From Nitrosomonas sp. (GTDB taxonomy: Bacteria; Pseudomonadota; Gammaproteobacteria; Burkholderiales; Nitrosomonadaceae), in NCBI GenBank assembly GCA_021774055.1, contig JAJFJL010000189.1, positions 1 to 39,270 on the forward strand: 39,270 bases of DNA. The letters run 5' to 3'. Numbering within the stretch: position 1 is the first letter of the stretch; every line of letters starts with the position of its first letter. Made by a program: the position numbers and the translations under genes. Below the pieces are notes generated by a model. It was given only the letters and a program-made list of their open reading frames with translations, was not told where the DNA came from and made no database searches. Positions 158 through 39,270 of this stretch are shown one piece after another.

Positions 158-167
158 TCATGGCACA

Positions 168-197: not shown

Positions 198-207
198 CGT
201 TTTACAA

Positions 208-330
208 TCATTCATCAGAGTTCTTTTTTATGTGATTTTTATCATCATGTTGCAGTGCATCTTTAACCACAATACCCATACCAACACAAAATATAATAAC
301 CATAAGAATCACAATTAATTCACCCATCAT
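208..330 (-). CDS. small single-span membrane protein coupled to fumC
   Basis: A 40-residue ORF whose ATG (330-328) overlaps the fumC TGA (329-327) as ATGA, the classic arrangement for translational coupling. Residues 3-22 are strongly hydrophobic ([12 protein letters not shown] onward) and form one predicted membrane helix. A short charged tail ends in KKNSDE. Independent support comes from the rearranged duplicate near 2950, where the last codons survive in frame as KNSDN-stop with substitutions. I recognise no family. It could be a small membrane regulator, or an ORF open only by chance. Confidence 0.5.
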
Positions 331-1724
331 AATGCATTATTTCTCCCCACCATATTCTCCGGCACTACCCAAGCATCAAATTCCTCCGCTGTCACATAAC
401 CAGTGGCAACCGCCGCTGCTTTTAAAGTTGTCGCTTCCCGATGCGCCTTTTTAGCAATCTCAGAAGATTTGTCATAACCAATATGTGGATTAAGTGCGGT
501 TACTAGCATCAGGGAATTATGCATCAGGGTATCAATTCGTTCATGGTTAGCTGCGATGCCTACGGCGCAGTTGTTATTGAAGCTAGTCATACCATCGCTT
601 AATAATCTGACACTTTGCAGGAAGTTATGAATAATCATTGGTTTCATAACGTTCAATTCAAAATTACCTAGGGAGCCGCCGATGTTGATGGCGACGTCGT
701 TACCCATAACTTGGCAGCACAGCATGGTGACAGCTTCTGATTGGGTGGGGTTGACTTTACCGGGCATGATGGAGCTGCCGGGTTCGTTTTCTGGGATTTT
801 TAATTCGCCGATACCGCAGCGTGGGCCGGAGGCTAGCCAGCGGATGTCGTTGCTGATTTTCATTAATGCGGCGGCTAGGGTTTTTAATGCGCCGTGTGCA
901 TGCACGAGGGCATCGTTACAGGCTAGGGCTTCAAATTTATTGGGAGCGGTAACAAAAGATAGTTCGGTTAAACGTGATAATTCTGCCGCTACCCGCACTG
1001 CAAATTCAGGATGGGCATTTAGTCCGGTACCAACGGCAGTGCCACCTAAAGCTAGTTCAGATAAATGTGGCAAGGTGGCTTCAACATGTTTTAAGCTATG
1101 ATCTAGCTGTGCGACATAGCCAGAGAATTCTTGCCCTAAGGTTAGTGGGGTGGCATCTTGTAGATGGGTGCGGCCAATTTTTACGATGTTAGCAAATTCT
1201 TCTACCTTTGCTGCCAGTGTTGTACGCAGTTGTTGTATAGCGGGAATTAATTGTTGTTGTACTACTTGCACTGCTGCTACGTGCATCGCAGTTGGAAATA
1301 CGTCGTTGGAAGATTGGCCTTTGTTGACATCATCATTAGGGTGTACTTTGCGATCACTACCGCGTCCGCCCCCTAATAGCTCTGATGCTCGATTTGCCAA
1401 CACTTCGTTCATATTCATGTTGGTTTGTGTACCAGACCCGGTTTGCCAAATTACTAAGGGAAATGCTGCAGGGTGTTGATCGGCGATCACTTCATCTGCA
1501 GCACGAATGATGGCAGCGGTGCTGGCAGCATCTAGCAAGCCTAATTCATGATTAACAGTTGCGGCTGAACGTTTTACTTGTGCCAAAGCATGCACTAAGG
1601 CAACTGGCATTTGTTCGTTAGAGATTTTAAAATTCTGTAAGGAGCGCTGTGTTTGTGCGCCCCATAGTGCGTTTGTTGGTACTTGCACGTTACCCATGGC
1701 ATCGCGCTCTTCACGGTAATCCAT
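327..1724 (-). CDS. fumC: fumarate hydratase class II
   Basis: An iron-independent fumarase that interconverts fumarate and L-malate in the TCA cycle as a cytoplasmic homotetramer. The sequence has the N-terminal WGAQTQRS stretch, [24 protein letters not shown] and the family signature [13 protein letters not shown], which includes the catalytic-loop serine. The frame is open up to 1814, but I place the start at ATG 1724 ([12 protein letters not shown]). It gives 465 residues, the usual FumC length, and has GAGA just upstream. The additional upstream residues look like read-through. A small membrane ORF overlaps its stop. A broken internal copy of this gene lies at 2908-3174, and an nrdB tail fragment sits upstream, evidence of a past tandem duplication. 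Confidence 0.95.
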
Positions 1725-4493: not shown

Positions 4494-7358
4494 TTATTGA
4501 CATGCTTCACATTCTTCATCATCGATAGCGCAATATTTTATTTCTACTGATGTTGATTCAGCAGTTAACTTAGTAACCCCACCATCGATTGGTACTGCAT
4601 TTAATGCCCCAGCTTCAACTGTAGATTTTTCTGCGGCAGTAGCACCTAGCGAACGTAAATAATAGGTGGTTTTTAAACCACGCAACCAGGCCAGTTTGTA
4701 AATTTCATCCAATTTTTTACCAGAAACTCCGGCCATATAAATGTTAAGTGATTGCGATTGGTCTATCCATTTTTGTCGTCGTGCTGCGGCCTCAACTAAC
4801 CAGCTTGGATCCATCTCAAATGCAGTGGCATAACAGGAGCGAATATCCTCTGGAATTCGGTCTATTTTGCTAATCGCACCATCAAAATATTTAAGATCAG
4901 CAATCATTACTTCGTCCCAAAGGTTGAGTTTTTTCAGGTCATTGACTAAGGTTTTATTGGCAATAGTGAATTCGCCTGATAGATTGGATTTAACGTATAG
5001 ATTCTGATAAGTTGGCTCAATGCTGGCGGAAACCCCAACAATGTTAGAGATGGTTGCAGTAGGCGCAATTGCTAAGCAGTTTGAATTACGTAAACCATGT
5101 TTTTTAATCTGTTTACGTAGTGCATCCCAGTTCTGGGTGGATGACAGATCAGCTTCTACAAAACCACCGCGCTGTTCACGCAGCACTTCTAACGAATCAT
5201 GCGGCAAAATTCCGCGATCCCATAAACTACCTTGATAAGAATTGTAACGACCACGCTCTTGTGCTAATTCACTGGAAGCCCAATAAGTATAGTAAGCGAC
5301 CATTTCCATTGATTGATCAGCAAAAGTTACCGCTTGTTCTGAGGCATAGGGAATACCTTGTTGATGCAGACAATCCTGGAACCCCATAATTCCTAGACCA
5401 ACTGGGCGATGTTTTAAGTTAGCATTACGTGCTTTGGCAACGGCATAAAAATTAATATCCACCACGTTATCAAGCATACGCATGGCGGTTTTAATGGTGC
5501 GTTTTAGCTTATTACTATCTAGCTGGCCATTTTTTAAATGCGCTACTAAATTTACCGAGCCAAGATTACATACTGCAATTTCATTCTCATTAGTGTTTAA
5601 AGTAATTTCGGTACATAAATTTGAACTATGTACTACACCAATATGATTTTGTGGTGAACGAATATTGCAAGGATCTTTAAAGGTGATCCACGGATGTCCG
5701 GTTTCAAACAACATACTAAGCATTTTGCGCCATAGTTGTTTAGCAGGAATCTTTTTGTACAGCCCAAACTCGCCCCGGGCTATTTTTTCTTCATAGCCAA
5801 GGTAAGCTTGCTCAAATTCTTTACCAAATTTTTCATGTAAATCAGGTACGTCATCAGGTGAGAAAAGTGTCCAGTCACTACCATCCATAACCCGTTTCAT
5901 AAATAAATCAGGAATCCAAGTGGCGGTGTTCATATCATGGGTACGACGACGATCGTCACCAGTATTTTTACGTAGCTCTAAAAACTCCTCAATATCTAGA
6001 TGCCAGCATTCTAAGTAAGCACAAACTGCACCCTTACGCTTGCCGCCTTGATTAACTGCCACTGCCGTATCAGATACTACTTTTAGAAAAGGAACCACAC
6101 CTTGTGACTTACCATTGGTACCTTTGATACGCGCGCCCAGCGCTCTGACTGCAGTCCAATCATTACCTAGACCACCGGCATACTTAGCCAGTAAGGCATT
6201 TTCTTTAATCGCTTCAAAGATACCGTCCAGATTGTCAGGTACGGTGGATAGGTAACATGAAGATAATTGTGAGCGACAAGTGCCTGAATTAAATAGGGTA
6301 GGGGTGGAGCTCATAAAATCAAAGCTGGATAACACCTGATAGAATTCAATTGCACGTGCTTCACGATCAATTTCATTCAAGGCTAATCCCATCGCCACTC
6401 GCATAAAAAATACCTGCGGCAATTCAATCCGTTTTTCCTTGATATGTAGAAAATAACGGTCGTATAAAGTCTGTAAGCCAAGGTAATCAAATTGTAAGTC
6501 ACGCTCAGCCACCAGTGTTTCTGCTAATCTTGGTAGATCAAACTGGGCTAGTCGTTCATCCAACAGGCCGGCTTCAATTCCTGTTTTAATAAAATCAGGA
6601 AAATAATCTTGGTAACCAGATGCCATCGCTTGTTGACTAACTTCTTCACCAAGTACCTCTAGGCGAATGCTATGCAACAAGATTCTTGCGGTTACATAAC
6701 TATAAGCAGGGTCTTTTTCTATCAATGATCTGGCAGACAAAATAGCTGATTTTCTAACTTCCTCTAGCGGCACTTCATCATACAAATCTTTTAGCATCGC
6801 CTTTAGAATCAAAGCCGCATCAACCGCTTCTCCTAACCCTTCGCAAGCAGATTCAATCGACGCCGACAATTGTGCAATATCCAGAGGCACTTTGCGTCCG
6901 TTATCCAATACATGCAGCACATCGGCTGGTGTTTCGGTAGTTGTTGCTTGTTTTAGTTTGGCACGTTCTCTGGTTCGGTCTTCACGATAAACAACATAAG
7001 CACGTGCCACATCATGTTCACCAGAACGCATTAATGCCAGTTCAACCTGATCTTGAATGTCTTCAATATGAAAAGTGCCACCATCTGGTTGGCGTCGTAA
7101 TAAGGCATTAACCGCATCAGTGGTTAAACGTATTACTACTTCATGTACTCGTGCTGATGCAGCTCCTTGACCACCTTCAACAGCGATAAATGCCTTGGTC
7201 ATAGCGACTGAGATTTTGCTTGGTTCAAAAGCAACTACCGCGCCATTGCGACGGATGATTTTATACTGTAAATAAGCTGAATTTTGCGACTGAGATGAGG
7301 GTGAATTTTTATTTTCAGACACTGCTCTATGGCTTGTTGGATTTGTGGCAAGCTGCAT
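4494..7358 (-). CDS. nrdA: ribonucleoside-diphosphate reductase, alpha subunit
   Basis: The large catalytic subunit of class Ia ribonucleotide reductase (954 residues). Two consecutive ATP-cone domains (about residues 31-125 and 146-240) suggest dATP overall-activity control. The barrel holds the active-site cysteines: C368 in SSCYLSTVPDN, the thiyl cysteine C582 in SSNLCTEI with E584, and C597 in AVCNLGSVNL. The C-terminal CEACQ is the swinging dithiol re-reduced by thioredoxin or glutaredoxin. ATG 7358 has AAGGAG upstream. A candidate NrdR box lies about 80 bases upstream. nrdB follows directly. Confidence 0.97.
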   Translation of the reverse strand: MQLATNPTSHRAVSENKNSPSSQSQNSAYLQYKIIRRNGAVVAFEPSKISVAMTKAFIAVEGGQGAASARVHEVVIRLTTDAVNALLRRQPDGGTFHIEDIQDQVELALMRSGEHDVARAYVVYREDRTRERAKLKQATTTETPADVLHVLDNGRKVPLDIAQLSASIESACEGLGEAVDAALILKAMLKDLYDEVPLEEVRKSAILSARSLIEKDPAYSYVTARILLHSIRLEVLGEEVSQQAMASGYQDYFPDFIKTGIEAGLLDERLAQFDLPRLAETLVAERDLQFDYLGLQTLYDRYFLHIKEKRIELPQVFFMRVAMGLALNEIDREARAIEFYQVLSSFDFMSSTPTLFNSGTCRSQLSSCYLSTVPDNLDGIFEAIKENALLAKYAGGLGNDWTAVRALGARIKGTNGKSQGVVPFLKVVSDTAVAVNQGGKRKGAVCAYLECWHLDIEEFLELRKNTGDDRRRTHDMNTATWIPDLFMKRVMDGSDWTLFSPDDVPDLHEKFGKEFEQAYLGYEEKIARGEFGLYKKIPAKQLWRKMLSMLFETGHPWITFKDPCNIRSPQNHIGVVHSSNLCTEITLNTNENEIAVCNLGSVNLVAHLKNGQLDSNKLKRTIKTAMRMLDNVVDINFYAVAKARNANLKHRPVGLGIMGFQDCLHQQGIPYASEQAVTFADQSMEMVAYYTYWASSELAQERGRYNSYQGSLWDRGILPHDSLEVLREQRGGFVEADLSSTQNWDALRKQIKKHGLRNSNCLAIAPTATISNIVGVSASIEPTYQNLYVKSNLSGEFTIANKTLVNDLKKLNLWDEVMIADLKYFDGAISKIDRIPEDIRSCYATAFEMDPSWLVEAAARRQKWIDQSQSLNIYMAGVSGKKLDEIYKLAWLRGLKTTYYLRSLGATAAEKSTVEAGALNAVPIDGGVTKLTAESTSVEIKYCAIDDEECEACQ

Positions 7359-7427
7359 TGCTGACGGCTCCTTATTCGATTTGCACTGAGGTGTTGTTAA
7401 TTAAGAAGATTTTCTGCTTATTCTGGG

Positions 7428-7447
7428 AAACCACTATATATGGTGTT
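7428..7447 (-). promoter_or_regulatory. candidate NrdR box upstream of nrdA
   Basis: ACCACTATATATGGTGT resembles the near-palindromic NrdR recognition site (ACACWATATATWGTGT type) and lies in the expected place upstream of nrdA. NrdR represses ribonucleotide reductase genes, usually through two boxes in phase. I could not find a convincing second box, so this is tentative. Confidence 0.4.
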
Positions 7448-7720
7448 AAGATCTTAAAAAAACATAACCTGTAGTGTACAAGTAAATATGAATTATTAGC
7501 AATCGATTAATAAATCTTTTTTAAACTACCCGAAAATATCGTGTGCCAAGCTACTATTAATAAACAATATGCGTAATTTTTAGGCAACATAATTAATTAT
7601 TTTTAGAAAATATATTGTTGCTAATTGGCGACAAGTTAACTCTTGCCTTTCAGTAAACATTACGGTCTAATCACTGCCTAAATCACAGCTGATAATCGTG
7701 CATATATCAGTAAAATTTAT

Positions 7721-7959
7721 GGCATCCTTCAATGTTCGGTTTGCATTTTTTTAAGAAGACAAAGTTTCATATTGAAACTATGTCAAAAATAGTTGATATG
7801 AAACATACACCTCGTCATTCCTGCATGTTTCTAACAGGAATCTACATCGACTTAGATTCCTGCTAAAGGCACGCAGGAATGACGAGGGATAAATAGACAT
7901 CAAAGGAAATTTTTGATATCAAAAATGTAAACTACTTTTGAGTTAATATGAAGGATGCC
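7721..7959. mobile_element. 239-bp MITE-like element with GGCATCCTTCA inverted ends
   Basis: Perfect 11-bp terminal inverted repeats, GGCATCCTTCA and TGAAGGATGCC, bound a 239-bp non-coding segment. It contains a nested palindrome of the CGTCATTCCTGC family. A second element with the same ends is at 28447-28645, and both share GTAAACTACTTTT near the right end. The flanks AAATTTAT and AAGCTTAG are only weakly alike, so any target duplication has decayed. It occupies much of the otherwise gene-free 7359-8043 stretch between divergent nrdA and the acyltransferase. Confidence 0.65.
7810..7887. repeat. nested palindrome (CGTCATTCCTGC family)
   Basis: Arms start CCTCGTCATTCCTGC and end GCAGGAATGACGAGG, with only a few mismatches across about 33 bp. 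It lies wholly inside the 7721-7959 element, so it either inserted into that element or is part of it. Confidence 0.7.
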
Positions 7960-8043
7960 AAGCTTAGGAACGTGCATGAAACAAATTAATTAAAATCAAG
8001 GCCAACAATTGATCATTTTCCAACGGTTAGCGTACTCAACAGC

Positions 8044-8838
8044 ATGTTAAAGACTACTTCGAAAATAGTACGCGTGATCCGCTTAACCCGCTTAGTACTA
8101 CATCTTGTTTCAGGATTTATTCAATCATTAGTGTACCCACGGTTTTCTCAAGCGCTGCAAAGACGGATGATGAAAAATTGGGCAGTAGGATTTCTTGAAA
8201 TTCTTAATATCAAACTTAATTACACTGGCACTCCACCAAACGCAGATCAACAACAAGCGTTATTAGTCGCAAATCATGTTTCTTGGTTGGATATTTGTGT
8301 GTTAATGGCGGTATGCCCAAGCCGGTTTGTGGCCAAATCGGAAATTCGTAATTGGCCTGTTATTGGCTTGCTAAGTCACAATGCTGGGACATTATTTATT
8401 CAGCGTGCCAAACGGCAAGATACTTTGCGTATCAATAAGAATATTGCAACAGCGCTGACGAACGGTGATCGAGTGACAATATTCCCAGAAGGCACCACCA
8501 GTGCAGGCACAGAAATTCAACATTTCCATGCCTCGTTGTTGCAAGCAGCCACTGCAACTGACGTATCGTTATACCCAGTGGCTATCAGCTATCTAGATGT
8601 AGCTGGCAAGGTTAGTAAAGAAGCAGCGTTTATTGATCCATCGTTACTGTTTTCATTACGACAAATATTAAGTCAAACCAGCATCGAAGCTAAATTAATC
8701 TTTATTGACCCAATCCAAGGCGCGGGAAAGAACCGACGGGCTTTAGCACGACTGGCAGAACAAGCGATTGCTAATGCCCTGTCACTTCCGGTTGTGAGCA
8801 ATAAACCTGAAAAATTTTCCGATCCTCCAAACGAATAG
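8044..8838 (+). CDS. PlsC-family 1-acyl-glycerol-3-phosphate acyltransferase
   Basis: A membrane-associated acyltransferase of the LPLAT/PlsC family (264 residues), which would acylate lysophosphatidic acid or a related lysolipid in phospholipid synthesis. Catalytic motif I HVSWLD is at residues 78-83. The middle block FVAKSEIRNWPVIGLL and motif III FPEGTTS (147-153) follow. The N-terminus is hydrophobic and basic. No strong ribosome site precedes ATG 8044. Its last 68 bases overlap the end of the convergent apaH gene. It may act on ornithine lipids or other lysolipids instead; motifs alone do not decide this. Confidence 0.88.
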   Translation: MLKTTSKIVRVIRLTRLVLHLVSGFIQSLVYPRFSQALQRRMMKNWAVGFLEILNIKLNYTGTPPNADQQQALLVANHVSWLDICVLMAVCPSRFVAKSEIRNWPVIGLLSHNAGTLFIQRAKRQDTLRINKNIATALTNGDRVTIFPEGTTSAGTEIQHFHASLLQAATATDVSLYPVAISYLDVAGKVSKEAAFIDPSLLFSLRQILSQTSIEAKLIFIDPIQGAGKNRRALARLAEQAIANALSLPVVSNKPEKFSDPPNE

Positions 8839-9592
8839 CAGTCAAACTGCCTCCCCATAGACAACCGGTATCAAGGGCAATTAAATTGTTAGATACTTTC
8901 AAGCCTAATGCTGACCAATGACCACATACGATGGTTGCTTGTTTGCTGGCACGCTGTGGCAGATCAAACCAAGGGTAGTAATCAGGTGGAATTGTTTGCA
9001 TGGTACCTTTATAAGAAAAATCCATTTTCCCATCTAAAGTGCAAACACGCATACGAGTCATGGCATTAACAATAACCCGCAACCGCTTATAACCGGATAA
9101 ATCATCTTGCCAAGAATTAGGTTTGTTACCATAAAGTTGTGCTAATAGTTTTAGAAACTTCTTTCCTTGTAAACAAGTCTCAACTTCCTGCGCAAGTTCT
9201 ACCGCTTGCGCTACTGACCAATCAGGTAACAATCCCGCATGCACCATCACATAATCTCCATCTACATGTAATAACTTTTGCTGGCGCAACCAATGCAGCA
9301 GGCTATCTCGATCAGGGGCATCTAGGATAGGCTTTAACGTGTCACTAGGATGTAATTTGGCATGACCAGCGGCAACCATTAGCAAATGCAGATCATGATT
9401 GCCTAATACCATAGTGACTGCATCACCAGCTTGCTTGATAAAACGTAATGCAGCTAAAGAATCTGGACCACGGTTAACAATGTCGCCGACTAACCATAGT
9501 TTGTCATTGGTAGAATCAAAGTTGATTTGATCAAGTAGTTGTTGGAAAGGCTGGTAGCAGCCTTGTAGATCACCGATTGCGTAGGTTGGCAT
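8771..9592 (-). CDS. apaH: symmetrical bis(5'-nucleosyl)-tetraphosphatase
   Basis: A cytoplasmic metallophosphatase that splits Ap4A into two ADP, limiting stress dinucleotides and Np4-capped RNA. The PPP-family motifs are all present: GDLQG (7-11), GDIVNRGPDS (36-45) and GNHD (64-67). C-terminal CGHWSALG and the ALDTGCLWGG block complete the metal site and fold. The length, 273 residues, is normal for ApaH. Its 3' end overlaps the convergent acyltransferase by 68 bases, so the two transcripts are complementary there. Confidence 0.95.
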   Translation of the reverse strand: MPTYAIGDLQGCYQPFQQLLDQINFDSTNDKLWLVGDIVNRGPDSLAALRFIKQAGDAVTMVLGNHDLHLLMVAAGHAKLHPSDTLKPILDAPDRDSLLHWLRQQKLLHVDGDYVMVHAGLLPDWSVAQAVELAQEVETCLQGKKFLKLLAQLYGNKPNSWQDDLSGYKRLRVIVNAMTRMRVCTLDGKMDFSYKGTMQTIPPDYYPWFDLPQRASKQATIVCGHWSALGLKVSNNLIALDTGCLWGGSLTAIRLEDRKIFQVYCSQPEVTGH

Positions 9593-9736
9593 GGTTTGAA
9601 TTAAAGCGATTTGATTGCTAAATATAACTAATTGATATTAACAGTTAAGTTTGATATTTTATAAAATCATCTGATTAAAGATAGGATACTTACTGTGCGC
9701 ATTACTCGCAAATTGTAACGTCTAACATTTTTTTAT

Positions 9737-27325: not shown

Positions 27326-27352
27326 GGCGCAATGCCCTGCGGTTATTGCGCC
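27326..27352. repeat. hairpin repeat GGCGCAAT...ATTGCGCC
   Basis: A clean 8-bp stem with an 11-base loop, followed by CTAC. It is the same family as 168-197 and lies directly after the transposase stop codon, where REP-like repeats linked to such transposases often occur. Confidence 0.65.
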
Positions 27353-27355
27353 CTA

Positions 27356-28324
27356 CTAAATTTGTTTATTAATTATTTCTTCAACATTAAGAATTAATTG
27401 CTTTACTTCTAGGTCTTCCTTAATCAATTGCTCGAACTTTGAGACTAAACCAGATACGCTACCATAATGACTCAAGCCAAAATATTCTGCAATCTCGGTT
27501 AACGGTAATCCTGTTAATTTACGACAACAATAAATAGCTGCCGATCGTGCAATATTCTTCTTCCTACGTCCCCGAGTAACCAATAGAATTTTTTTCTGAG
27601 GTGTAGCAAACACAACTGAAACTGCGCGTACAATAATTTTCATTGAGGGAACAGGTTTCAATCTCTGTGCTTCTGGTATCTCGCGATCAATAGGTGCTTT
27701 GGCGTGTATATATTTCAAAAAGTCATTGCTACCTAGAACAGGTGGACATTTCTTTTTGTTATAGAACAGCTTAGTTTCTTTATCTATACCGGTTTTCACA
27801 AAAGTCTGATAACAATCTTGTGGTTGGTGATTTTTAACCATATCTAAGATAAACTTTGTCTGCAACCATTCTAGACGTGGTTCAATGCCAATATATGTTC
27901 GAAAACTGGACCATTGATATTCCTCAGCTGAAAGTGTTAATCCTGCTACAACTGGGCTAAGGTGGATATACCGGCTGACATTCAATAAATAAGCATTAGG
28001 TTCAACCAGAATAGCCTTATAGCGACCTCGAAATAAAGGCCCGTCGGTATCTTCTGCACGGTTATAACGCTGGGTGTATATTCCACTTAAATGTCGCATT
28101 GCACGCTGAAGATTGCCCTTTGGTGTATGCAACAATAAATGATAATTGTTATCCATCAAACAATAAGCATGTGTTTCCACTTGAAACATTTTACTTATCT
28201 CTGACAGCAAATTCATAAATAGCAAACGATGGCTATCATTATGAAAAATATTTCTATGACCTGCTCCTCGGTTCGTAACATGATACCAAGCGCCGGGAAA
28301 TTCAACTCTTAATGGACGTGACAT
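27356..28324 (-). CDS. REP-associated Y1 transposase (RAYT-like)
   Basis: A 322-residue single-strand transposase of the Y1_Tnp/IS200-related family (SRPLRVEFPGAWYHVTNRG at the start, GPLFRGRYKAILVEPNAYLL in the middle). The catalytic tyrosine is in the GIYTQRYNR region. The C-terminal part (about 255-300) has a DnaA-like helix-turn-helix (LPLTEIAEYFGLSHYGSVSG), common in large members. The metal-binding motif reads NNYH (59-62) where HxH is expected, so its first histidine is asparagine. Such proteins move or maintain REP palindromes; a GCGCAAT hairpin lies just downstream. Confidence 0.88.
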   Translation of the reverse strand: MSRPLRVEFPGAWYHVTNRGAGHRNIFHNDSHRLLFMNLLSEISKMFQVETHAYCLMDNNYHLLLHTPKGNLQRAMRHLSGIYTQRYNRAEDTDGPLFRGRYKAILVEPNAYLLNVSRYIHLSPVVAGLTLSAEEYQWSSFRTYIGIEPRLEWLQTKFILDMVKNHQPQDCYQTFVKTGIDKETKLFYNKKKCPPVLGSNDFLKYIHAKAPIDREIPEAQRLKPVPSMKIIVRAVSVVFATPQKKILLVTRGRRKKNIARSAAIYCCRKLTGLPLTEIAEYFGLSHYGSVSGLVSKFEQLIKEDLEVKQLILNVEEIINKQI

Positions 28325-29383: not shown

Positions 29384-29442
29384 AATTAGCACGTAGCTCG
29401 GTAGGGTGTAATAACCGCAGGGCATTACACCTGTTTGCTGTT

Positions 29443-29560
29443 GAAAACAGCAATATCCGACGTAATTCCTTTAATAGCAAATCCAGCGTAAGTAGTTTGA
29501 TGACACCCTATTCACAGCCAAATCTACAGAAACAATAACGCTGGTGTATTGGGTATAGCA
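29443..29560 (-). pseudogene. fragment duplicated from the SLOG-4TM gene
   Basis: About 115 bp match 30870-30993 inside the neighbouring SLOG gene, including codons for LLLEELRRVLLFS and the cysteine-rich RYCFCRFGC stretch, with about 15% differences. The frame is broken and there is no start. A hairpin repeat (29405-29432) lies beside it, and TAGCACGTAG occurs on both sides (near 29388 and 29566). The rest of 29561-29611 holds nothing I can identify. Confidence 0.7.
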
Positions 29561-29611: not shown

Positions 29612-31639
29612 TTACAATTCATTATCTTTTACTTCATAGATTTCCAGCCAGTCAGCAGTTTCTTTAATGGTAATGGTGGAAATTTCATTCAAGATGCTGG
29701 TCATTTGACTGGTGGTTAGGGTTGCTCTGTTGGTTAATTTATTACGCCTAGAGATTAGCGCGGTACGCATGCTTAGTGAACGTTGTGATGAAATATCAAA
29801 TTCGGCATGGTTACGAATTGCATAAGCAGTTGTGGCGCAGATTGGTAGAATTGCGGCACCCAATGCCAGAGTGTAGGAAATAACATCAGAGATTGTTTTT
29901 GTATCGAGTGCTAAATTTATGGAAATGGTGATTAATTTAAGTGCCACCACCACCACCGTGGCGAAAAACAATCGAAAGCTCCATTCTCTTAGCTGGTTTC
30001 CTAGAACACGCATAGTCGCCGCATTTTGGGTGTGGTAGTTGATTTGTTTGTTGATCCAATTGGTTATTATGAAATTATTGGTGTCTTGTTTGTATTGTGC
30101 GTCTAAATGGCAGCTATTAAAACCAGCCCAACGATTAATCATTTCGGTGTAAATATATAACCAACTTCGTCCAACAGCACTGTGCCCAATGACTTCTCGG
30201 TCGAGATATTCAACTGTATCGCGAAAGTCATGCATTACGTAGGGTCTACCCAACGCTGACAGATAAAGCATCGGCCGTAAGAATTCTGCCAAGCAACGAT
30301 ATTCCAACCAATGGTCGTGGTATTTTTGTTGGTGATCTTTTTGGTAAAGCGCATGAATCGCTACTAGTAATGTTAATTCAACCAGTACGCATATCAGTAC
30401 TACACATGGATAGGCTTTAAAAGCGAGTGCACATGCAGCGGTGATCAAGGCCGCTGCACCAAGTAAATAGATCCATACAAAAATGCTGCGATGGATACGA
30501 GAATAATAATTGGCTAGTCGATCAGCACGTAGATAGGCAGCGAAATATTTGTTTAGACTAGTTTTAGCAAGATGATCTTCGACATTACTTGGTTCTTGCG
30601 CTGTAATCGGATGCGTATTTTTTTCTTTTAATGTTTCCAGTTCTTTTTCTATTTTTACTGGTGTTGCAATAATATTTTTTAAGAAATCAAATGTTCTGGC
30701 TATAGGATTCTTATATTCTTGTTTAAGTTTGATTGGTCCAGTAAAATCAAAATCAGCTTTGTTATCTGCTGGTGAAAGTAGGTTTTGATCTGCTTGATAC
30801 TGTTTAAATCGATCAAATATTTCTTGTCGGCGAGACTGGGAAACATCATCTGCAACTTCCAATATATCTGAAAACAATAATACCCGCCGTAATTCTTCTA
30901 ATAGCAAATCCAGCGTGAGTAGTTTACTGCTATCCTGTTCACAGCCAAATCTACAGGAGCAATAACACTGTGTAGGTGTATTAGGTAGAGTGGAAATATG
31001 AATCACTGGAACGCCATTTTGTCTGGCAGCATTGACGGCAGTTGCGGTACCTTTGTCCTCGCTGTCGTCGCCATTATAGACAGCAATCAAAATATCACTG
31101 TGCGCCACCAGCAAACGGCTGCAATCCTTATAAGCTTGGTCGCGATTGTTTAGGTTGCCATCCATTTCAATAACTTGTACAGATGGTTGCCCGTGGTTCA
31201 TACGCGCTAAAATTGCGTTAAATTCAGCCACAGTGCCCAGTTGTTGATCAATAACACTATTCTCAGGTAGAAAATCTTGCTCAAAATCTTTCTTTGAAAA
31301 AGGTAAGATACACGCCAGTTCATGGCTAAATGGGATCAATTCAGGTTGAATACATAGCCTATCAGCACCTTCTGCTAATGAAGAAATAATACGAATAACC
31401 GGCTGGGTGTCTTTTGCATATAAAGCGGATGCGGTTTCATCGGTGGCTAGTTGTTGGATAGCATGGCCGATATTGGTATAAGTTGCCTCGATTTCGGACT
31501 GCAAACGTTGTAACTCTGTTGCAGGTAATTCTCTATGACCGACTACACCAATACGCAAAGTCATCGGCACCAGAGGATTGGTGATCATGTTTTCATAGAT
31601 AGGCTGGTTGTGTGTTTGTGTTGGCTTGTCAATGTCCAC
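29612..31639 (-). CDS. SLOG-domain protein with four TM helices (SLATT-like)
   Basis: About 675 residues. An N-terminal SLOG domain shows LRIGVVGHRE (29-37), IISSLAEGADRL (84-95), ILPFSKKDF and LIAVYNGDD (184-192), motifs linked to nucleotide or ADP-ribose-type ligands. A CxCxCx3C cluster (225-233) could bind metal. Then come TM pairs at 386-406/411-431 and 556-576/586-608, around the conserved-looking HWLEYRCLAEFLR block (443-455) typical of SLATT-type proteins. I chose GTG 31639, which has GAGGA upstream and overlaps the channel gene by 11 bases; ATG 31588 or 31564 are alternatives. Its likely role is a ligand-gated membrane effector partnered with the RyR protein; this is inferred. Confidence 0.8.
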   Translation of the reverse strand: MDIDKPTQTHNQPIYENMITNPLVPMTLRIGVVGHRELPATELQRLQSEIEATYTNIGHAIQQLATDETASALYAKDTQPVIRIISSLAEGADRLCIQPELIPFSHELACILPFSKKDFEQDFLPENSVIDQQLGTVAEFNAILARMNHGQPSVQVIEMDGNLNNRDQAYKDCSRLLVAHSDILIAVYNGDDSEDKGTATAVNAARQNGVPVIHISTLPNTPTQCYCSCRFGCEQDSSKLLTLDLLLEELRRVLLFSDILEVADDVSQSRRQEIFDRFKQYQADQNLLSPADNKADFDFTGPIKLKQEYKNPIARTFDFLKNIIATPVKIEKELETLKEKNTHPITAQEPSNVEDHLAKTSLNKYFAAYLRADRLANYYSRIHRSIFVWIYLLGAAALITAACALAFKAYPCVVLICVLVELTLLVAIHALYQKDHQQKYHDHWLEYRCLAEFLRPMLYLSALGRPYVMHDFRDTVEYLDREVIGHSAVGRSWLYIYTEMINRWAGFNSCHLDAQYKQDTNNFIITNWINKQINYHTQNAATMRVLGNQLREWSFRLFFATVVVVALKLITISINLALDTKTISDVISYTLALGAAILPICATTAYAIRNHAEFDISSQRSLSMRTALISRRNKLTNRATLTTSQMTSILNEISTITIKETADWLEIYEVKDNEL

Positions 31640-33401
31640 AGGTTTTTTCCTCTGATTTAATCTCGCGTAATAATTGCGGGATGCTATGCACTGAATCACG
31701 ATCTTTTTGGCGTTCACTTTCTGGTAGCTGATCCCAATCTTTTAAACAAGGAGATAAACGTTCATCAGTGTTTTTAGGCCCGTCTGTAAGTATCCAGCCA
31801 TCAAGCAGCTTTTCCGCTACCCAGCGTTCATGCTCCATGCATGCTAAATGTTCAATTATTTCTGGCTTTTCGAGTAGATGCTCAATAGATTCAGCAGTGT
31901 AATCTAGGCTGCCGCTGATGATCCTGCATTTTATTTCTAAATGATCAGCTTGATTGCGATTAGCATCTTTCAAAGTTTCGAGTAATTCTCTCCAGCAGGA
32001 TAACGAGGGATTGTTTTTAAGCGTATCACCGGCATCAATTTGTGACGTTACATAATTATTATGAATGGTAGTAGCTAGTTGATCATGTTTAGTGTTAAAA
32101 ATATTTTCAAGATTAAGCAGTTCTTCTGTTGGATAAACAAACGTAAATTGGCTATGTGATTTTAATACTGGTTCAGTACGCTTTGCCAATAAATCGTTTG
32201 AGAACTGGCACACAATAATCGGGCAAGTTAGGCTAAGTCGGGCGAGTAATTTTGACCAAATCAAAGTTGCCTTAGTATCTGCCGCACACAAATAAACCAT
32301 ATTTGGCTTGAATTCATCAATCAATTGTTGTGTTGTTTGAGGGCTTAAAAAACTTAATGTAGTATCTTTAGCGCTAATTTTTATAATGCTAGACAGAACT
32401 GAGTGTTGTTGATTTAATGCGGTCAGTTTAGCCTTTACTTGTGGGCCAACCAAGGTGATGTGAATAGGTTGAGATTTGCCATAATGGCCTAATTTAGCCA
32501 ATTGTAGAATTAATGCCTCTGTAAAATCATGCGTTCCAAGAAGTAGAATTTTGATTTCAGGCAGAGTTTTTATTTTATTGAGTAATACTATATCTGGCCC
32601 ATGATTATTCAGTAGCCAACGTGCTGCCTTTTGATGTGCGTTGATGATTCCGGCTGAAAAGTTAGGGTAATCTTTTGAAAATATATCATCGTCATAAAGT
32701 ACTGCTGCTAATTCAGAGTTATGTATATGGATCATACAGTTTAATAAAGACGTTCTAGGGTTATCTTTCTTTAATTGATAGGCCTGGATAACAACCTCAC
32801 TATTGGTTAAATCATGCGCGGTTAATGCTAGTAAATACTTAGCTTCAAGAACCCTTGCGTTGATCAAATTAACACTATCTTTGGGATCACCAACAATTAC
32901 ATAAGCGCCTTTACGCCGTGCTGAATCCAAATGAACATTGGAAGGATTAGATTCAATCACCACTGTTTTAATCTTGTCAGTTATCAACACCTGGGTCATG
33001 AGCCAACTTTGCTCATCCAAACCACAAACTATTGTGTGATTGTTTAACCAACGTATCCGCCATGATAGAAAACTACCGTGCAGCATTCGTAATACGGCTA
33101 TGATTACGGCATAACCTAGTAGCGCTGGTGCCAACCAACGTGCCACTTCAAGTTTCAAGGAAATGCCTCCAGTTGGTGTATACCAGGGAATATCACCTGT
33201 CGGCGCATAAAATCCAAAGGTAAATAACGCCACAGTTTTATACAACAGATCAAGCATGCTCATATGTTGTTCTGAACCAGCATAATAATCCGCATAACCA
33301 CAGAATCCTAAGACTATAGCCAACGGTATGCCTAAAATAAGGATCCATAATTCACGGTGTGAAAAGACAGTGTCGGTAGTTTGTAGCGGTGGTTTAAACA
33401 T
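31629..33401 (-). CDS. two-TM channel-like protein with TrkA-N and RyR domains
   Basis: 590 residues. TM helices at 18-36 and 88-106 flank a pore-like loop (LLYKTVALFTFGFYAPTGD), but no canonical TVGYG filter is present. Residues 122-245 form a TrkA-N/RCK Rossmann domain with the acidic E150 (VVIES) and VGDPKD. Its glycine loop is GLDEQS rather than GxGxxG. A second Rossmann-like segment spans 283-400. Residues 515-580 are a RyR domain (EHLACMEHERWVAEKLLDGW; SPCLKDWDQLPESERQKDRD). It is probably a nucleotide-regulated ion channel or membrane sensor, translated with the SLOG-4TM gene. A partial copy of its N-terminus lies at 36864-37088. Confidence 0.85.
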   Translation of the reverse strand: MFKPPLQTTDTVFSHRELWILILGIPLAIVLGFCGYADYYAGSEQHMSMLDLLYKTVALFTFGFYAPTGDIPWYTPTGGISLKLEVARWLAPALLGYAVIIAVLRMLHGSFLSWRIRWLNNHTIVCGLDEQSWLMTQVLITDKIKTVVIESNPSNVHLDSARRKGAYVIVGDPKDSVNLINARVLEAKYLLALTAHDLTNSEVVIQAYQLKKDNPRTSLLNCMIHIHNSELAAVLYDDDIFSKDYPNFSAGIINAHQKAARWLLNNHGPDIVLLNKIKTLPEIKILLLGTHDFTEALILQLAKLGHYGKSQPIHITLVGPQVKAKLTALNQQHSVLSSIIKISAKDTTLSFLSPQTTQQLIDEFKPNMVYLCAADTKATLIWSKLLARLSLTCPIIVCQFSNDLLAKRTEPVLKSHSQFTFVYPTEELLNLENIFNTKHDQLATTIHNNYVTSQIDAGDTLKNNPSLSCWRELLETLKDANRNQADHLEIKCRIISGSLDYTAESIEHLLEKPEIIEHLACMEHERWVAEKLLDGWILTDGPKNTDERLSPCLKDWDQLPESERQKDRDSVHSIPQLLREIKSEEKTCGH

Positions 33402-33632: not shown

Positions 33633-33966
33633 CTGAAAAGGCTACCAACTTAGGGTAGGCCATCAGTAAAATTAATTAGACGAGCGGCACGGAGTAATAT
33701 CCCATAAAGTTATCGGTATATATATACTTTTGGAAGTGGGACTTTAGTCCCGCCTCATGTGTTATCAAAACACAGCAGTTATTGTATGTGGTGTATGGAA
33801 TGTATCCTACCTGATTTCATATGTTTGGTAGGCAGAGTATTTTTCACCTGCTGTTGCAGCAGGCAGTGTTTCGCCATTTTTTTTATAAATCTCTATTACT
33901 TGTCATTGTAATCTTATTAAACATGCTTACACAAATGGTGCAATGCCCTGCGGTTATTGCACCCTA
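33633..33966. repeat. long noncoding direct repeat, copy 1
   Basis: A ~330-bp unit starting CTGAAAAGGCTACCAACTTAGGG, containing a GGGACTTTAGTCCC hairpin and, at its end, the GGTGCAAT...ATTGCACC hairpin. Copies 2 (33972-34255) and 3 (37330-37638) match closely. Possible frames are not conserved between copies, so I treat it as non-coding. Confidence 0.8.
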
Positions 33967-33971
33967 CCGTG

Positions 33972-34255
33972 CTGAAAAGGCTACCAACTTAGGGTGGGAC
34001 ATCAGTAAAATTAATTAGACGAGCGGCACGAAGTAATATCCCATAAAGTTATCGGCATATATATACTTTTGGAAGTGGGACTTTAGTCCCACCTTATGCG
34101 TCATCAAAACACAGCAGTTATTGTATGTGGTGTATGGAATGTATCCTACCTGATTTCATATGTTTGGTAGGCAGAGTATTTTTTACCTGCTGTTGCAGCA
34201 GGCAGTGTTTAGCCATTTTTTTTATAAATCTCTATTACTTGTCATTGTAATCTTT
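33972..34255. repeat. long noncoding direct repeat, copy 2 (tandem)
   Basis: It follows copy 1 directly and matches it at nearly every base up to ATTGTAATCTT, then diverges. The following 34256-34518 stretch has no gene or motif that I recognise. Confidence 0.8.
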
Positions 34256-34640: not shown

Positions 34641-35717
34641 TTGAGTCTAAGTAAAGAATTATTAGATCGTCTAATATGTTCAAAATATATCTTCCACAAA
34701 GGGGTTGATATCCTTGAACGGGGCGAGCCTTTTTCTTCTGGATTAGGTGTGCTGCACTTCCAAGATGCAGCAGAGATGGTTCTAAGAACCATAGCAGAAC
34801 ATTTACACTGCAGTTTGAAAGAAAATGCTGCTTTTAACCAAATAATTGATTCAATCGATAGTTTTGGTGTCCTAGAACTAACCCACAGAAGCGCTTTAAA
34901 TCAACTAAATAAGGCCAGAATTAATTTTAAACATTTTGGCTTAGAACCAAAGCGTGAAGATGTAATTAAATTTCGTCACGATTTAGAGGAGTTTTTCCCA
35001 AACGCCCTTAAATCGTTTCTGGATGTTGACTTTCATTTAATCTCTTTAGCCAATTTGATTGAACATAGGCGCACAGAGAATTTCGTGAATGATGCTGAAG
35101 AGCTAATCAAAAATGGAAGCTACCGGGACTCTATTTGTTCGTCAGCTATTGCGTTTACAATTTTTAATTCGCACTACAACAAAGAACGTGAAAGTTATTG
35201 GAGAGCCCCCTTCAGACGGATAGAAGATGCAGAACTTCAAAGATGGGTGGAAAGTATTGAAGAAATTGTATTAGACCAACAGGCCCAATTAAATCTCATT
35301 ATGAATGGCATAAATTTAGCCAATTACAGACGTTTTCAAAGATGCGTACCTGTTGTGCAACTTACTGACGCGGGAACATACCATGTATCCACCTTGGGGG
35401 ATAGAGGGCAAATGGAACCCTCTTTAGAGAATGCCTTGTTTTGCTATAATTTTGCAATTGATTCCATCTTGTTAATGAAAGCCAACAAACTACCTTCGAT
35501 GTATCCATTTCAGGAACCAGTAAGAAAATTTAAGGTAGTCAAAAAAAGTCCCATCATAGTATGGCCTGGCGATGGCCAAGAAATTATTAGGCATACGGAA
35601 ATTGGTGAAATTTTTTCTGCTCGTCATGAGAGAAATGACAAAGCAGAGCATGTCGCTATAATCTTTGACGGGGATGATGCGTTCGTTGAAAGTACATGTG
35701 TTACCGCTGCCAATTGA
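34641..35717 (+). CDS. HEPN-like protein with RX4H motif
   Basis: A 358-residue, mostly helical protein with no named family I can assign. The first 130 residues look like a HEPN-type four-helix bundle: LGVLHFQDAAEMVLRTIAEHL, later LNQLNKARINFKHFGLEP. In the latter, R93 to H98 (RINFKH) fits the RX4-6H RNase signature. The C-terminal third (about 235-350) is more beta-rich, and its role is unknown. The start is TTG 34641, supported by a perfect AGGAG five bases upstream. The gene ends 14 bases from the convergent RelE toxin. An RNA-targeting effector or toxin is possible, but this rests on one motif. Confidence 0.65.
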   Translation: MSLSKELLDRLICSKYIFHKGVDILERGEPFSSGLGVLHFQDAAEMVLRTIAEHLHCSLKENAAFNQIIDSIDSFGVLELTHRSALNQLNKARINFKHFGLEPKREDVIKFRHDLEEFFPNALKSFLDVDFHLISLANLIEHRRTENFVNDAEELIKNGSYRDSICSSAIAFTIFNSHYNKERESYWRAPFRRIEDAELQRWVESIEEIVLDQQAQLNLIMNGINLANYRRFQRCVPVVQLTDAGTYHVSTLGDRGQMEPSLENALFCYNFAIDSILLMKANKLPSMYPFQEPVRKFKVVKKSPIIVWPGDGQEIIRHTEIGEIFSARHERNDKAEHVAIIFDGDDAFVESTCVTAAN

Positions 35718-35731
35718 TCTCATTTGCATTG

Positions 35732-35992
35732 TTAGCCTAATAACTTATCATACTCATCATGTGTTCCTATCCAGAACCACTGTACACCGGATGTTACTGG
35801 AACGCCTATTGCACGATAATTTATGCCAATACGAACGCTTCGGTAACGGCCACGACAAACTTGTTTGAAATATAGAGAAGGGTGTGATGGGTTTTCTTTC
35901 AAAAGAGCATAATTATGTTGTGCTGATTTTTGTGTTTTCTTAGGAAGTGCATCGAAATAGCGCCAAAACTTTGTTGAGGCATAGTGCTTCAA
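35732..35992 (-). CDS. RelE/ParE-family toxin
   Basis: An 86-residue RelE-fold protein (SAQHNYALLKENPSHPSLYF, then GRYRSVRIGINYRAIGV and WIGTHDEYDKLL). The start is an unusual TTG overlapping the antitoxin stop as TTGA, so it depends on coupling to antitoxin translation. No downstream ATG would keep the fold complete. The final HDEYDKLL is typical of this toxin family. Confidence 0.85.
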   Translation of the reverse strand: MKHYASTKFWRYFDALPKKTQKSAQHNYALLKENPSHPSLYFKQVCRGRYRSVRIGINYRAIGVPVTSGVQWFWIGTHDEYDKLLG

Positions 35993-36189
35993 ATTTCTTG
36001 TGCCTTTCCTGTTTTATATTCTGCAATTGCTTCTTCCGCCAGGGTATCTAGTTTGCCAGCTGCCGCATCAGCTTCAATTTGCGCATCCCAAGCGTCCGAA
36101 TCATGCTTTGCAAACCAAAGTCTGAATTCAGCCAATTCTTTTAGTGAAAATTTTTCTATTTCTTTTTCAACAGTCTCTACTGCTGTCAT
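35989..36189 (-). CDS. antitoxin partner of the RelE-type toxin
   Basis: A 66-residue acidic protein (VEKEIEKFSLKELAEFRLWF, ending EEAIAEYKTGKAQEI) of the kind found upstream of many RelE toxins. AGAGGT lies upstream of ATG 36189. Its TGA overlaps the toxin start. I see no DNA-binding fold in so short a chain. Confidence 0.8.
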   Translation of the reverse strand: MTAVETVEKEIEKFSLKELAEFRLWFAKHDSDAWDAQIEADAAAGKLDTLAEEAIAEYKTGKAQEI

Positions 36190-36533: not shown

Positions 36534-36863
36534 GGGAATTCTGGGGAGTGCGGCCGAGCAAGGTCGATAATTCCAGCGGGTGTGAATCCCGTTCCGGCAA
36601 GGCAGGTCAGCCACCGGATAGCAATCATCGGACAGGCGGAGGCAACTCCAAATGTTAAGCACGATGGGCGCAAGCCAACAGGCCGTAAACAACAGTTGAA
36701 GTGATTTAGCCTCGAAAGACTCTACACGAGCAGGGTGACAGAGTTCCCCTTCTGGAAGCCTCCATTTTATGATATGACAGACAAGTGTCATAAAGCTGCT
36801 ACACAATATTTAATTATTGCGTATATGACACTCTAAATTAAGTATTGTGTCCCCAGAATTCCC
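36534..36863. mobile_element. MITE split by a group II intron remnant
   Basis: The outer ends GGGAATTCTGGGGA and its complement form inverted repeats. The right arm continues inward as CACAATACTTAATTT on the minus strand. On the left the matching CACAATATTTAATTA appears only after 255 bp, at 36802-36816. So a roughly 75-bp palindromic MITE with about 29-bp arms was interrupted after GGGGA. The element truncates the second channel-gene copy. Confidence 0.6.
36548..36801 (+). ncRNA. truncated group II intron-like sequence
   Basis: This starts with GTGCG, the group II 5' consensus type, exactly at the break in the MITE arm. Its structured, GC-richer sequence (GGTGTGAATCCCGTTCCGG, GGCAGGTCAGCCACCGGA, GGCCGTAAACAACAG) resembles bacterial group II intron domain I. 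There is no reverse transcriptase and no recognisable domain V. A small stem near the end (TATGAC/GTCATA) could be domain VI. It is at most a deleted remnant. Confidence 0.5.
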
Positions 36864-37088
36864 AAGCTGTAAGGAAATATCTCCCGTCTGGGCATAAAAT
36901 CCAAAAGTAAATAACGCTACCGATTTATATAATAGGTCAGACGTGGTGGTGACTTGCTCTGAGTTGGCATAATAATCCGCATAACCACAGAATCCTAACC
37001 CAATTATTACTAAGGCACATATACCAAGAATACAAAGCTCATAAGGAGAAAAAATAGCGTCACTGGTTTGTCTAGATTGTTTAAACAT
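36864..37088 (-). pseudogene. N-terminal fragment of a second channel-RyR gene
   Basis: 75 codons (MFKQSRQTSDAIFSPYEL ..., LLYKSVALFTFGFYAQTGDI) match residues 1-83 of the intact channel gene at about 65% identity, then run into the MITE at 36863. The first helix and pore-like FTFGFYA are kept. The rest of the gene is absent. It sits behind a TPR tail exactly as the intact gene does. Confidence 0.8.
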
Positions 37089-37331: not shown

Positions 37332-37638
37332 GAAAAGGCTTACCAACTTAGGGTGAGACATCAGTAAAATTAATTAGACGAGCGGCACGAAGTAATATCC
37401 CATAAAGTTATCGGCATACATATACTTATTTGGAAGTGGGACTTTAGTCCCACCTTATGTGTCATCAAAACACAGCAGTTATTGTATGTGGTATATGGAA
37501 TGTATCCTACCTGATTTCATATGTTTGGTAGGCAGAGTATTTCTTACCTGCTGTTGCAGCTGTTAGTGTTTCATCATTTTAATTTTATTAAATATTTTTA
37601 CATAAATGGTGCAATGCCCTGCGGTTATTGCACCCTAC
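37330..37638. repeat. long noncoding direct repeat, copy 3
   Basis: It matches 33633-33966 for most of its length, with a small rearrangement near 37560-37600, and ends with the same GGTGCAAT hairpin. With the adjacent TPR and channel fragments it makes a duplicated block (36864-37638 against about 33151-33966). Confidence 0.8.
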
Positions 37639-37932: not shown

Positions 37933-39270
37933 ATGTCAGGAATATTTATTAGTTACCGCCGTGATGATAGTGCAGCATATGCTGGCCGTTTGTATGATCG
38001 ACTGGCAGATCATTTTGGTCGTGATCATGTCTTTATGGATATTGATCATATTGAACCAGGTGAAGATTTTGTTGAAGTAATTCAGAGCAAACTTGCCGTG
38101 GTTGATATTGCTATCGTTCTAATTGGCAAGCAATGGCTCGGTCTTACGGATCTTGATGGAAGAAGACGTTTGGATAATCCTGATGATTTTGTACGTCTTG
38201 AAATCGCTGCGATTTTAAAACGAAAGATACGGGTTATTCCAGTTCTAGTCGGTGGTGCAACTATGCCTAAATCGTTAGAATTACCTGATCCACTTGTTCC
38301 GTTGGCACGGCGTCATGCTGTTGAGATTGGTGATCATGGTTTTCATTCTAATGTCGATAAATTGATTGAAACATTGGAAAAGTTATTGGTTAAATTAGGA
38401 AATCCGATAACAAAAGCTAAAACTAAAAAACGCTACCATGTTGTTGCTTATATCAGTGCAGCGATAGCTGTTGTTTTTGGAGGGTTGTGGCTTAGTACTC
38501 AGACACCAACAAAAGAAATCGATGTTACACCCCCTGAAATAGTTGGATTGCCAGATCACCCTGTTGAACCTTTAGCGGAAATAGCTAACGCAAGGCCTTC
38601 TGGATGGGAAGAAACGGCAACTATATCTGAATTAACAAAGGCGGCTGAGCAAGGAAATGCGGCTGTACAAGCAAGGCTCGGTTTTATGTATGCTGAGGAA
38701 ACTAGAGGTGTATCCAAAGATATTGCTAAATCATTTTTTTGGACACAAAAAGCTGCTGCACAAGGAAATGCTCGAGGACAATATAATCTTGGAGTAGCCT
38801 ATGCAAATGGCCAAGGGATAAGCAAGGGTGAAGCAAAAGCGGTGGAGTGGTACCAGAAGGCGGCTGAGCAAGGATATGCTGGTGCACAATATAATCTTGG
38901 AGTAGCCTATGCAAATGGCCGAGGGATAAGCAAGGATGAAGCAAAAGCGGTGGAGTGGTACCAAAAGGCTGCTGAGCAAGGATTTGCTGATGCACAATTT
39001 AATCTTGGTGTTATGTATGCAAATGGCCTAGGGGTAAGTAAGAATGAAGAAAAAGCGGTGGAGTGGTACCAGAAGGCGGCTGATCAAGGATATGCTATTG
39101 CACAATACAGTCTTGGTGTTAGGTATGCAAATGGCCGAGGGATAAGCAAGGATGAGGCAAAATCGGTGGAGTGGTACCAGAAGGCGGCTGATCAAGGGTA
39201 TGCTATTGCACAATACAGTCTTGGTGTTAGGTATGCAAATGGCCGAGGGGTAAGCAAGGATGAGGCAAAA
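37933..39270 (+). CDS. TIR-TM-Sel1 repeat protein, incomplete at window end
   Basis: 446 codons are visible and the frame is still open at 39270. Residues 1-150 are a bacterial TIR domain (FISYRRDDSAAYAGRLYDRL; VFMDIDHIEPGEDF; FVRLEIAAILKRKIRVIPVL), with E90 at the position of the NADase glutamate. A basic KAKTKKR precedes one TM helix (about 168-188). From about 237 on are Sel1 repeats of 36 residues (AEQGYAGAQYNLGVAYANG, SKDEAKAVEWYQKA), at least five complete and one cut by the edge. TIR domains act as NAD-degrading effectors or signal generators; here Sel1 repeats may sense envelope ligands. ATG 37933 has no clear ribosome site. Confidence 0.88.
   Translation, partial: MSGIFISYRRDDSAAYAGRLYDRLADHFGRDHVFMDIDHIEPGEDFVEVIQSKLAVVDIAIVLIGKQWLGLTDLDGRRRLDNPDDFVRLEIAAILKRKIRVIPVLVGGATMPKSLELPDPLVPLARRHAVEIGDHGFHSNVDKLIETLEKLLVKLGNPITKAKTKKRYHVVAYISAAIAVVFGGLWLSTQTPTKEIDVTPPEIVGLPDHPVEPLAEIANARPSGWEETATISELTKAAEQGNAAVQARLGFMYAEETRGVSKDIAKSFFWTQKAAAQGNARGQYNLGVAYANGQGISKGEAKAVEWYQKAAEQGYAGAQYNLGVAYANGRGISKDEAKAVEWYQKAAEQGFADAQFNLGVMYANGLGVSKNEEKAVEWYQKAADQGYAIAQYSLGVRYANGRGISKDEAKSVEWYQKAADQGYAIAQYSLGVRYANGRGVSKDEAK

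Follow-up and report, generated by a model that had tools for sequence, protein, structure and literature searches.

A pair of overlapping genes on a Nitrosomonas contig raises the question of what a channel-like protein with a ryanodine receptor (RyR) domain does beside a membrane protein that is probably of SLOG-SLATT type. Both genes lie on the minus strand between positions 29612 and 33401 of the window, the whole 39,270-nt stretch analysed (positions 1–39270 of contig JAJFJL010000189.1). The genome assembly to which it belongs comprises 256 contigs and 3.07 Mb, with a completeness of 84%. A reading of the letters alone (the sequence-only reading) had placed two open reading frames (ORFs) here, and both were found there. 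On balance, we lean towards a membrane effector module made up of two proteins, within a nucleotide-signalled conflict system that is probably anti-phage. The pair may act as an antiviral membrane switch, since its relatives often recur together and near NAD-acting immune-type enzymes.

The channel-like protein and its partner

The first gene (31629–33401) encodes a channel-like protein of 590 residues. Its RyR and TrkA-N matches in Pfam both exceeded the curated cut-offs: the TrkA-N/RCK domain covers residues 124–236 (32694–33032; PF02254, 3.5e-9), and the C-terminal RyR domain, or R12, covers residues 514–575 (31677–31862; PF02026, 3.9e-11, 43.5 bits against a cut-off of 27.4). Strong hydrophobic segments (residues 18–36 and 86–104) and the AlphaFold model together placed two transmembrane (TM) helices, TM1 at residues 15–42 (33276–33359) and TM2, the inner helix, at residues 82–117 (33051–33158), with a short model helix at 49–62 between them. 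A weaker hydrophobic segment (380–398) was placed by the model within a Rossmann domain. The model and dual-RCK fold matches also indicated a second, RCK2-like Rossmann domain (residues 283–420, 32142–32555). The sequence-only reading had described a 2-TM, TrkA-N, C-terminal RyR protein, with which Pfam, hydrophobicity and AlphaFold agree; it had overlooked the second Rossmann domain.

The channel model had a mean pLDDT (per-residue model confidence) of 85.2 and a pTM (predicted template modelling score) of 0.76, falling to only ~52–53 pLDDT for residues 61–80 between the TM helices. In a Foldseek search of the PDB, GsuK ranked first (7.0e-9, TM-score by query 0.35, root-mean-square deviation 11.5), and further matches included TrkA, the gating rings of plant DMI1/CASTOR, Slo1 and MthK. 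The protein thus combines the two TM helices and the TrkA-N/RCK gating domains of an RCK-gated 2-TM channel. AlphaFold, which had been proposed as a check, predicted both a gating ring resembling that of channels and the membrane modules.

The RyR stretch matched a two-repeat RyR1 chimera among solved structures at 1.2e-14 (best single repeat 2.3e-6) and an animal ryanodine receptor chain at 3.4e-8. According to the available text of PMC13232231, RyR/R12 domains of the phage protein RyDEP bind or cleave 2'/3' cyclic ADP-ribose (cADPR) via H75, W78, H100 and D117; six of eight homologues tested bound 2'/3'cADPR, and cleavage was reported for the founding RyDEP and not for the other homologues. 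With positions assigned from residue spacing and from HMMER alignments to RyR chains rather than to RyDEP, three of these four residues are kept in the window protein (H524, W527 and D567), with S550 at the place of H100. Across 24 channels, E523, H524, W527 and W536 were kept in all and D567 in 22; position 550 was His in seven, Ser in 14, Thr in two and Asn in one.

The second gene (29612–31639) probably starts at a GTG codon within an open frame that runs from another GTG (29612–31717). The 11-nt overlap given by the sequence-only reading holds if translation starts at GTG 31639, which AGAGG precedes. In the predicted structure (mean pLDDT 75.4), four TM helices follow a Rossmann domain; the helices correspond to hydrophobic segments at frame residues 412–430, 439–457, 583–601 and 612–630. 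The Rossmann domain (frame residues 53–252, 30962–31561) is SLOG-like: its predicted fold matched DprA (Foldseek probability 0.96 but E 0.36), two of ten homologues gave weak matches to the YpsA SLOG family (best 2.3e-4), and Pfam gave no direct SLOG match in the window protein. GxxGHR, SLAEGADR and GTA, which we take to be SLOG motifs, were conserved in the partner alignment.

The 4-TM block (frame residues 386–698, 29624–30562) is SLATT-like by model, hydrophobicity, homologue alignment and profiles below cut-off, namely DUF4231 (0.088, Pfam) and SLATT_1 (0.012, NCBIfam). The profiles stayed below cut-off in the scanned homologues as well (best DUF4231 1.4e-4, SLATT_3 1.6e-4; none in L048). 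The four helices look as if a 2-TM SLATT unit had been doubled. The sequence-only reading had named a SLOG domain fused to four TM helices with a SLATT-like block; the Rossmann domain and the four helices held up, and the SLOG and SLATT-type identities are probable, resting as they do on weak or sub-cut-off matches.

Pairing, neighbours and distribution

We compared 24 channel loci: the window, scored separately from the hidden Markov model (HMM) scan of the homologues, and 23 others. A SLOG-SLATT gene was present in 11 of them (window, L040, L041, L043, L045–L048, L050, L054 and L065). The sequence-only reading had proposed a survey for conserved pairing, and recurrent pairing was found. The gene directly follows the channel gene in the window and at L045–L048, L050 and L065. 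A patatin gene intervenes at L040 and L041, the SLOG-SLATT gene is divergent at L043, and the end of a SLATT gene lies just upstream of the channel at the archaeal L054. With start codons assumed, the two genes overlap by 4–14 nt at L045, L046 and L065 and are separated by 20–132 nt at L047, L048 and L050; the fixed stoichiometry that had been read from the overlap is not supported. Distances among channels and among SLOG-SLATT proteins were correlated (Mantel r 0.92, p 1e-4, 10 pairs; r 0.75, p 0.03, seven closer pairs). At L029 (genome G424), a SLOG domain fused to the channel was considered; hhalign gave a probability of 22% (E 0.001, 57 columns) and Pfam and PDB nothing useful, and the case was not used as proof.

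Conflict-type genes recurred around the channels. A TIR gene was found in 11/24 loci (window, L029, L038, L044, L045, L048, L050, L056, L058, L059 and L065), with SIR2-TIR fusions at L045, L048 and L059. One alignment column was Glu in 11/11 TIR domains, that of the window included; we take it to be the catalytic Glu. Genes with nSTAND matches occurred in seven loci (L038, L039, L045, L047, L048, L050 and L059; weak at L052, 8e-6, and L058, 9e-5), patatin genes in four (L040, L041, L043 and L047) and a caspase gene in one (L038). DUF4062, a family of TIR-like NADases according to the available text of PMC13174449, passed the cut-off at L045, L052 and L058, with matches below the cut-off at L047 and L050. 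At L065, on a near-complete single-contig chromosome, the order is TIR, TPR protein, channel and SLOG-SLATT, then a convergent TIR gene.

At least one of these genes, with SLOG-SLATT counted, was found in 18/24 channel loci (19 with the weak L052 match), compared with 0/15 control loci (Fisher 2.2e-6 for 18). SLOG-SLATT and TIR genes were each found in 0/15 controls (Fisher 0.0015 each, uncorrected for relatedness or stretch length). The controls were 15 RCK-channel loci from the 21 non-self places of the order search; places with RyR only (G067:C4 and G187) and TrkA-N-only frames of 660–727 residues (G136, G183, G129:C99 and G174) were left out, and in two of the 15 (L070 and L072) the channel itself was not recovered by the ORF/HMM step. 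The neighbour HMMs were built from case loci; leave-one-out runs recovered 11/11 TIR domains (1e-12 to 1e-45). The cases are not independent: six are of the genus of the window, L052 and L054 belong to one metagenome-assembled genome (MAG), and L040 and L041 to one genus. Contig ends cut L028, L039, L044 and L051.

Some neighbours were set aside or noted separately. At L050, the gene at 5335–9639 encodes an SNF2 helicase and not, as had been considered, a STAND protein, and the patatin match upstream at L049 was below cut-off (0.0019) and not counted. At L028 (genome G549), a Cas_NE0113 gene (127–1242, minus strand, 9.9e-44) is divergent from the RyR channel. The Anaerolineales-labelled L058 (7757–15538) encodes two TIRs, DUF4062, a Nudix protein and three RyR proteins: the channel, a protein whose N-terminus belongs to no known family, and a RelA_SpoT-RyR protein that weakly matches LSDAT/SLOG. 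RyR domains without a channel were seen outside the 24 loci at L037 (by eye, a RelA/SpoT-like N-terminus plus RyR), and at the phage-like L042 and L025.

The channel is patchily distributed. PF02026 was present in 4/369 genomes of the class and 8/398 of the phylum (own genome counted in both). In the order, 20/200 genomes (own included) matched the channel protein somewhere, and no match outside the own genome spanned TM, RCK and RyR together. Within the genus, the channel occurred in 6/85 genomes. A close SLOG-SLATT gene (E below 1e-100) was found in all six channel genomes and in one of the 79 others (G942, partial; Fisher 1.6e-8, ignoring relatedness); G966 has a SLOG-SLATT fragment and G015 a divergent SLOG-SLATT gene. 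On a single contig of G015 (L093, 2373–10772, minus strand), SLOG-SLATT, SIR2-TIR and nSTAND genes stand in a row with no RyR channel. The closest named channel homologues, at 55–56% identity, were from Nitrosomonas MAGs.

A partial survey, in which species genomes were scanned for two short patterns taken from an alignment of three sequences, yielded 62 stretches and 16 confirmed loci, with labels ranging from Nitrosomonas through Alteromonadales and Chloroflexota to methane-cycling archaea. One of the 16, L057, has no channel ORF, its RyR part lying in an open frame of 307 codons only, and was excluded from the 24. The channel had no tblastn match in plasmids and phages, and no match was confirmed in viral contigs scanned with the channel and partner proteins.

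Further copies and mobile elements in the window

The window contains remnants of both genes. The channel gene has a second, broken copy at 36810–37088 (minus strand; 63.9% identity over residues 1–72; repeats D4, D5 and D7), which comprises the N-terminus only, and the DNA upstream of this copy is duplicated too. Directly downstream of the intact SLOG-SLATT gene is a fragment of a further copy (29442–29543, minus strand; 84% identical over 102 nt to 30869–30970; 32 residues at 78%, E 0.006). Because of these remnants, parts of the pair appear to have been duplicated and then lost, a pattern expected for conflict genes. The broken channel copy sits between the intact pair and a TIR-TM-Sel1 repeat gene (37933–39270, plus strand), which is truncated by the contig end (PF13676, TIR_2, 4.7e-11; Sel1 3.1e-61; TM judged by eye). 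This gene is the candidate signal maker and may be the partner of the pair in its own genome.

Repeats and mobile elements surround these genes. Upstream of the channel gene are two tandem 283-nt units, 96% alike at a spacing of 339 nt (33633–34254), and a third unit (37333–37615, 62% without gaps) lies upstream of the broken copy; none of the three has an assigned gene. RNA matches to group II intron domains D1–D4 were found at 36583–36811 and 2–122; the former directly adjoins the broken channel copy and lies between the members of the inverted pair GGGAATTCTGGGG/CCCCAGAATTCCC. A 27-nt palindromic element resembling repetitive extragenic palindromes occurs at 29405–29431, 33937–33963, 37608–37634, 27326–27352 and 172–198. 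It has 57 genome matches at ≤3 mismatches (26 + 31) and none for the reversed-pattern control. One copy adjoins a Y1_Tnp (IS200-like) gene (27356–28324), which is presumably RAYT-type. The inverted repeat 29395–29431/33937–33973 was considered as the boundary of a transposon; this was rejected, because its arms contain the dispersed element.

Two small genes of 86 and 66 residues, toxin-antitoxin-like by eye (35732–36189, minus strand), lie in the stretch that separates the intact channel gene from its broken copy. A 358-residue protein (34641–35717, plus strand) had a weak HEPN match (0.036, below cut-off); it was not retained as a component of the system, having no phmmer match outside the window among the matches listed.

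Mechanism, alternatives and known systems

In the reading we prefer, a neighbouring NAD-consuming enzyme (TIR, SIR2-TIR or DUF4062-STAND) would sense infection and make an ADP-ribose-type signal. The channel would bind that signal through the RyR domain attached to its gating ring, and the SLATT protein through its SLOG domain. The channel would open and the SLATT helices would assemble in the membrane, so that ion gradients would dissipate and the infected cell would stop, an outcome of the abortive-infection kind. We infer each of these functional steps for the two proteins from published analogies with GsuK, ThsA and SLATT. The sequence-only reading had supposed that SLOG or TrkA-N binds a nucleotide signal and that the membrane parts disrupt ion balance. 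It was right in part, and had missed the TIR, SIR2-TIR and DUF4062 neighbours, the broken further copies and the role of RyR/R12 with cADPR described in the available text of PMC13232231.

Several observations weigh against this reading. Within the examined stretches, several of them cut by contig ends, 13/24 loci showed no separate SLOG-SLATT gene and 13/24 no TIR gene, and none of the profiles searched was found at L028, L049, L051, L053 or L055. Homologues that never co-occur or that sit in housekeeping operons had been named as refuting evidence; this did not refute the reading, as the two genes co-occur in 11/24 loci, although L055 lies amid housekeeping-looking genes and L053 shows no conflict gene by eye. 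Case stretches extended up to ~10 kb per side and control stretches ~7.5 kb, and the TIR genes of L058 lie beyond 7.5 kb. In G1004 the channel and SLOG-SLATT genes are on separate contigs, and in G015 SLOG-SLATT accompanies SIR2-TIR and STAND genes without a channel. The channels of L046 and L065 are 89% alike and their SLOG-SLATT proteins just 51%, so that partners are sometimes exchanged. The TIR gene of the window is divergent and 4.5 kb from the intact pair; it adjoins the broken channel copy, and the contig end truncates it. In 17/24 channels the position of the second ligand His of RyDEP holds another residue, which in the window protein is Ser. PADLOC 2.0.0 matched neither protein at E 0.1. 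Finally, the full K+ filter T-x-G-[YF]-G was found by eye in none of the 24 aligned channels, and conduction is not assured.

The missing filter also counts against an ordinary nucleotide- or redox-gated K+ channel of GsuK type, serving osmotic or K+ homeostasis with an accessory membrane protein. The best folds (GsuK, TrkA, Slo1 and MthK), the TrkA-N match over cut-off and a T-[FL]-G-F motif, seen by eye in the loop of five Nitrosomonas-type channels (window, L044, L046, L047 and L065), would all suit such a channel. We nevertheless consider it very unlikely: filters of the TIGYG, TIGYD or TIGFT type were visible in 8/13 control channels inspected but the full motif in no RyR channel, the NAD-binding Gly motif of the window protein is degenerate (CGLDEQS), only 6/85 genus genomes have the channel, and its NADase- and STAND-type neighbours are absent from the 15 ordinary RCK loci. 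Equally improbable in our view is that the channel has lost its pore function and only senses the ligand, as a scaffold through which the SLATT protein, the true pore, is activated. A pore loop poorly conserved over the 24 channels, the absent filter, the low model confidence of the loop and the prediction of SLATT as a pore-forming effector (available text of PMC7159879) are consistent with a scaffold; yet the model contains both long TM helices and the short helix between them, Y-x4-LF is common to the pore loops of 13/14 channels in alignment A5, and 13/24 channel loci show no SLOG-SLATT gene.

A slightly better, though still poor, chance goes to the RyR domain being an enzyme or sink rather than a gate. 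It would then cleave or sequester cADPR-type signals, either to reset the system or as protection from the signal of a neighbour, and SLOG-SLATT would be the sole effector. H524 and D567 match the catalytic pair H75/D117 of RyDEP, and the channel-free row in G015 fits this arrangement. The cleavage reported for the founding RyDEP and not for the other tested homologues (available text of PMC13232231) argues against it, as does the fusion of RyR to a pore-type gating ring, where binding would be expected to move the pore.

The preferred effector module has a more specific form, which we regard as tentative. It would be a prokaryotic channel gated by an NAD-derived ADP-ribose signal via RyR/R12, with a SLOG membrane protein reading the same signal, a bacterial and archaeal immune module uniting parts of animal RyR (R12) and TRPM2 (SLOG). 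TRPM2 carries a SLOG domain. Such a channel might even degrade the ligand that opens it and so close again, since the catalytic His/Asp pair of RyDEP is retained. If this module were real, bacteria and archaea would open a true channel by ADP-ribose-type immune signals, an ion-flux effector would be added to TIR immunity, and the role of RyR domains in these prokaryotic proteins would be explained. The pair would also offer a simple system for asking if cADPR-type signals are read by the R12 domain of animal ryanodine receptors, as the available text of PMC13232231 asks.

Among known systems, RyDEP and animal R12 share the domain family PF02026 and the H, W and D pocket residues with the window protein. 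Unlike free RyDEP, its RyR domain forms part of a 2-TM RCK channel and has Ser in place of the second His; a word search found no mention of TrkA or SLOG in the available text of PMC13232231. GsuK, which is activated by ADP and NAD+ (available text of PMC3510474), likewise has two TM helices and two RCK-like domains, whereas the window channel has an extra RyR domain, a degenerate first Gly motif and no full K+ filter. The Swarozyc/DUF4062 NADases resemble the system in that DUF4062 proteins neighbour some channel loci; the words RyR, SLOG, SLATT, TrkA and channel did not occur in the main text of PMC13174449 available to a word search. No open-literature paper among the matches listed describes an RyR channel combined with SLOG-SLATT; subscription papers may contain parts.

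Nucleotide-activated SLOG/SLATT effectors were reportedly set out in a 2015 survey by Burroughs, Aravind and colleagues. They are restated in the available text of PMC7159879 and PMC9503650. The window partner resembles them in that a single protein joins a SLOG-like and a SLATT-like part and occurs close to NAD-acting enzymes, and differs in its four TM helices and its pairing with an RyR-bearing RCK channel. Thoeris is similar to the 11/24 channel loci with a TIR gene in placing a TIR-type NADase near an effector with SLOG or another ADP-ribose-reading domain, and a membrane effector variant exists (PMC11204291). The available text of that paper describes activation of the SIR2-SLOG ThsA by 2'/3'cADPR and speculates that ThsA TM helices form lesions or pores. 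Pfam gave no SIR2 or macro match in either window protein: Thoeris ThsA effectors are SIR2-SLOG or TM-macro proteins, whereas here the candidates are a SLOG-SLATT protein and an RyR-bearing RCK channel.

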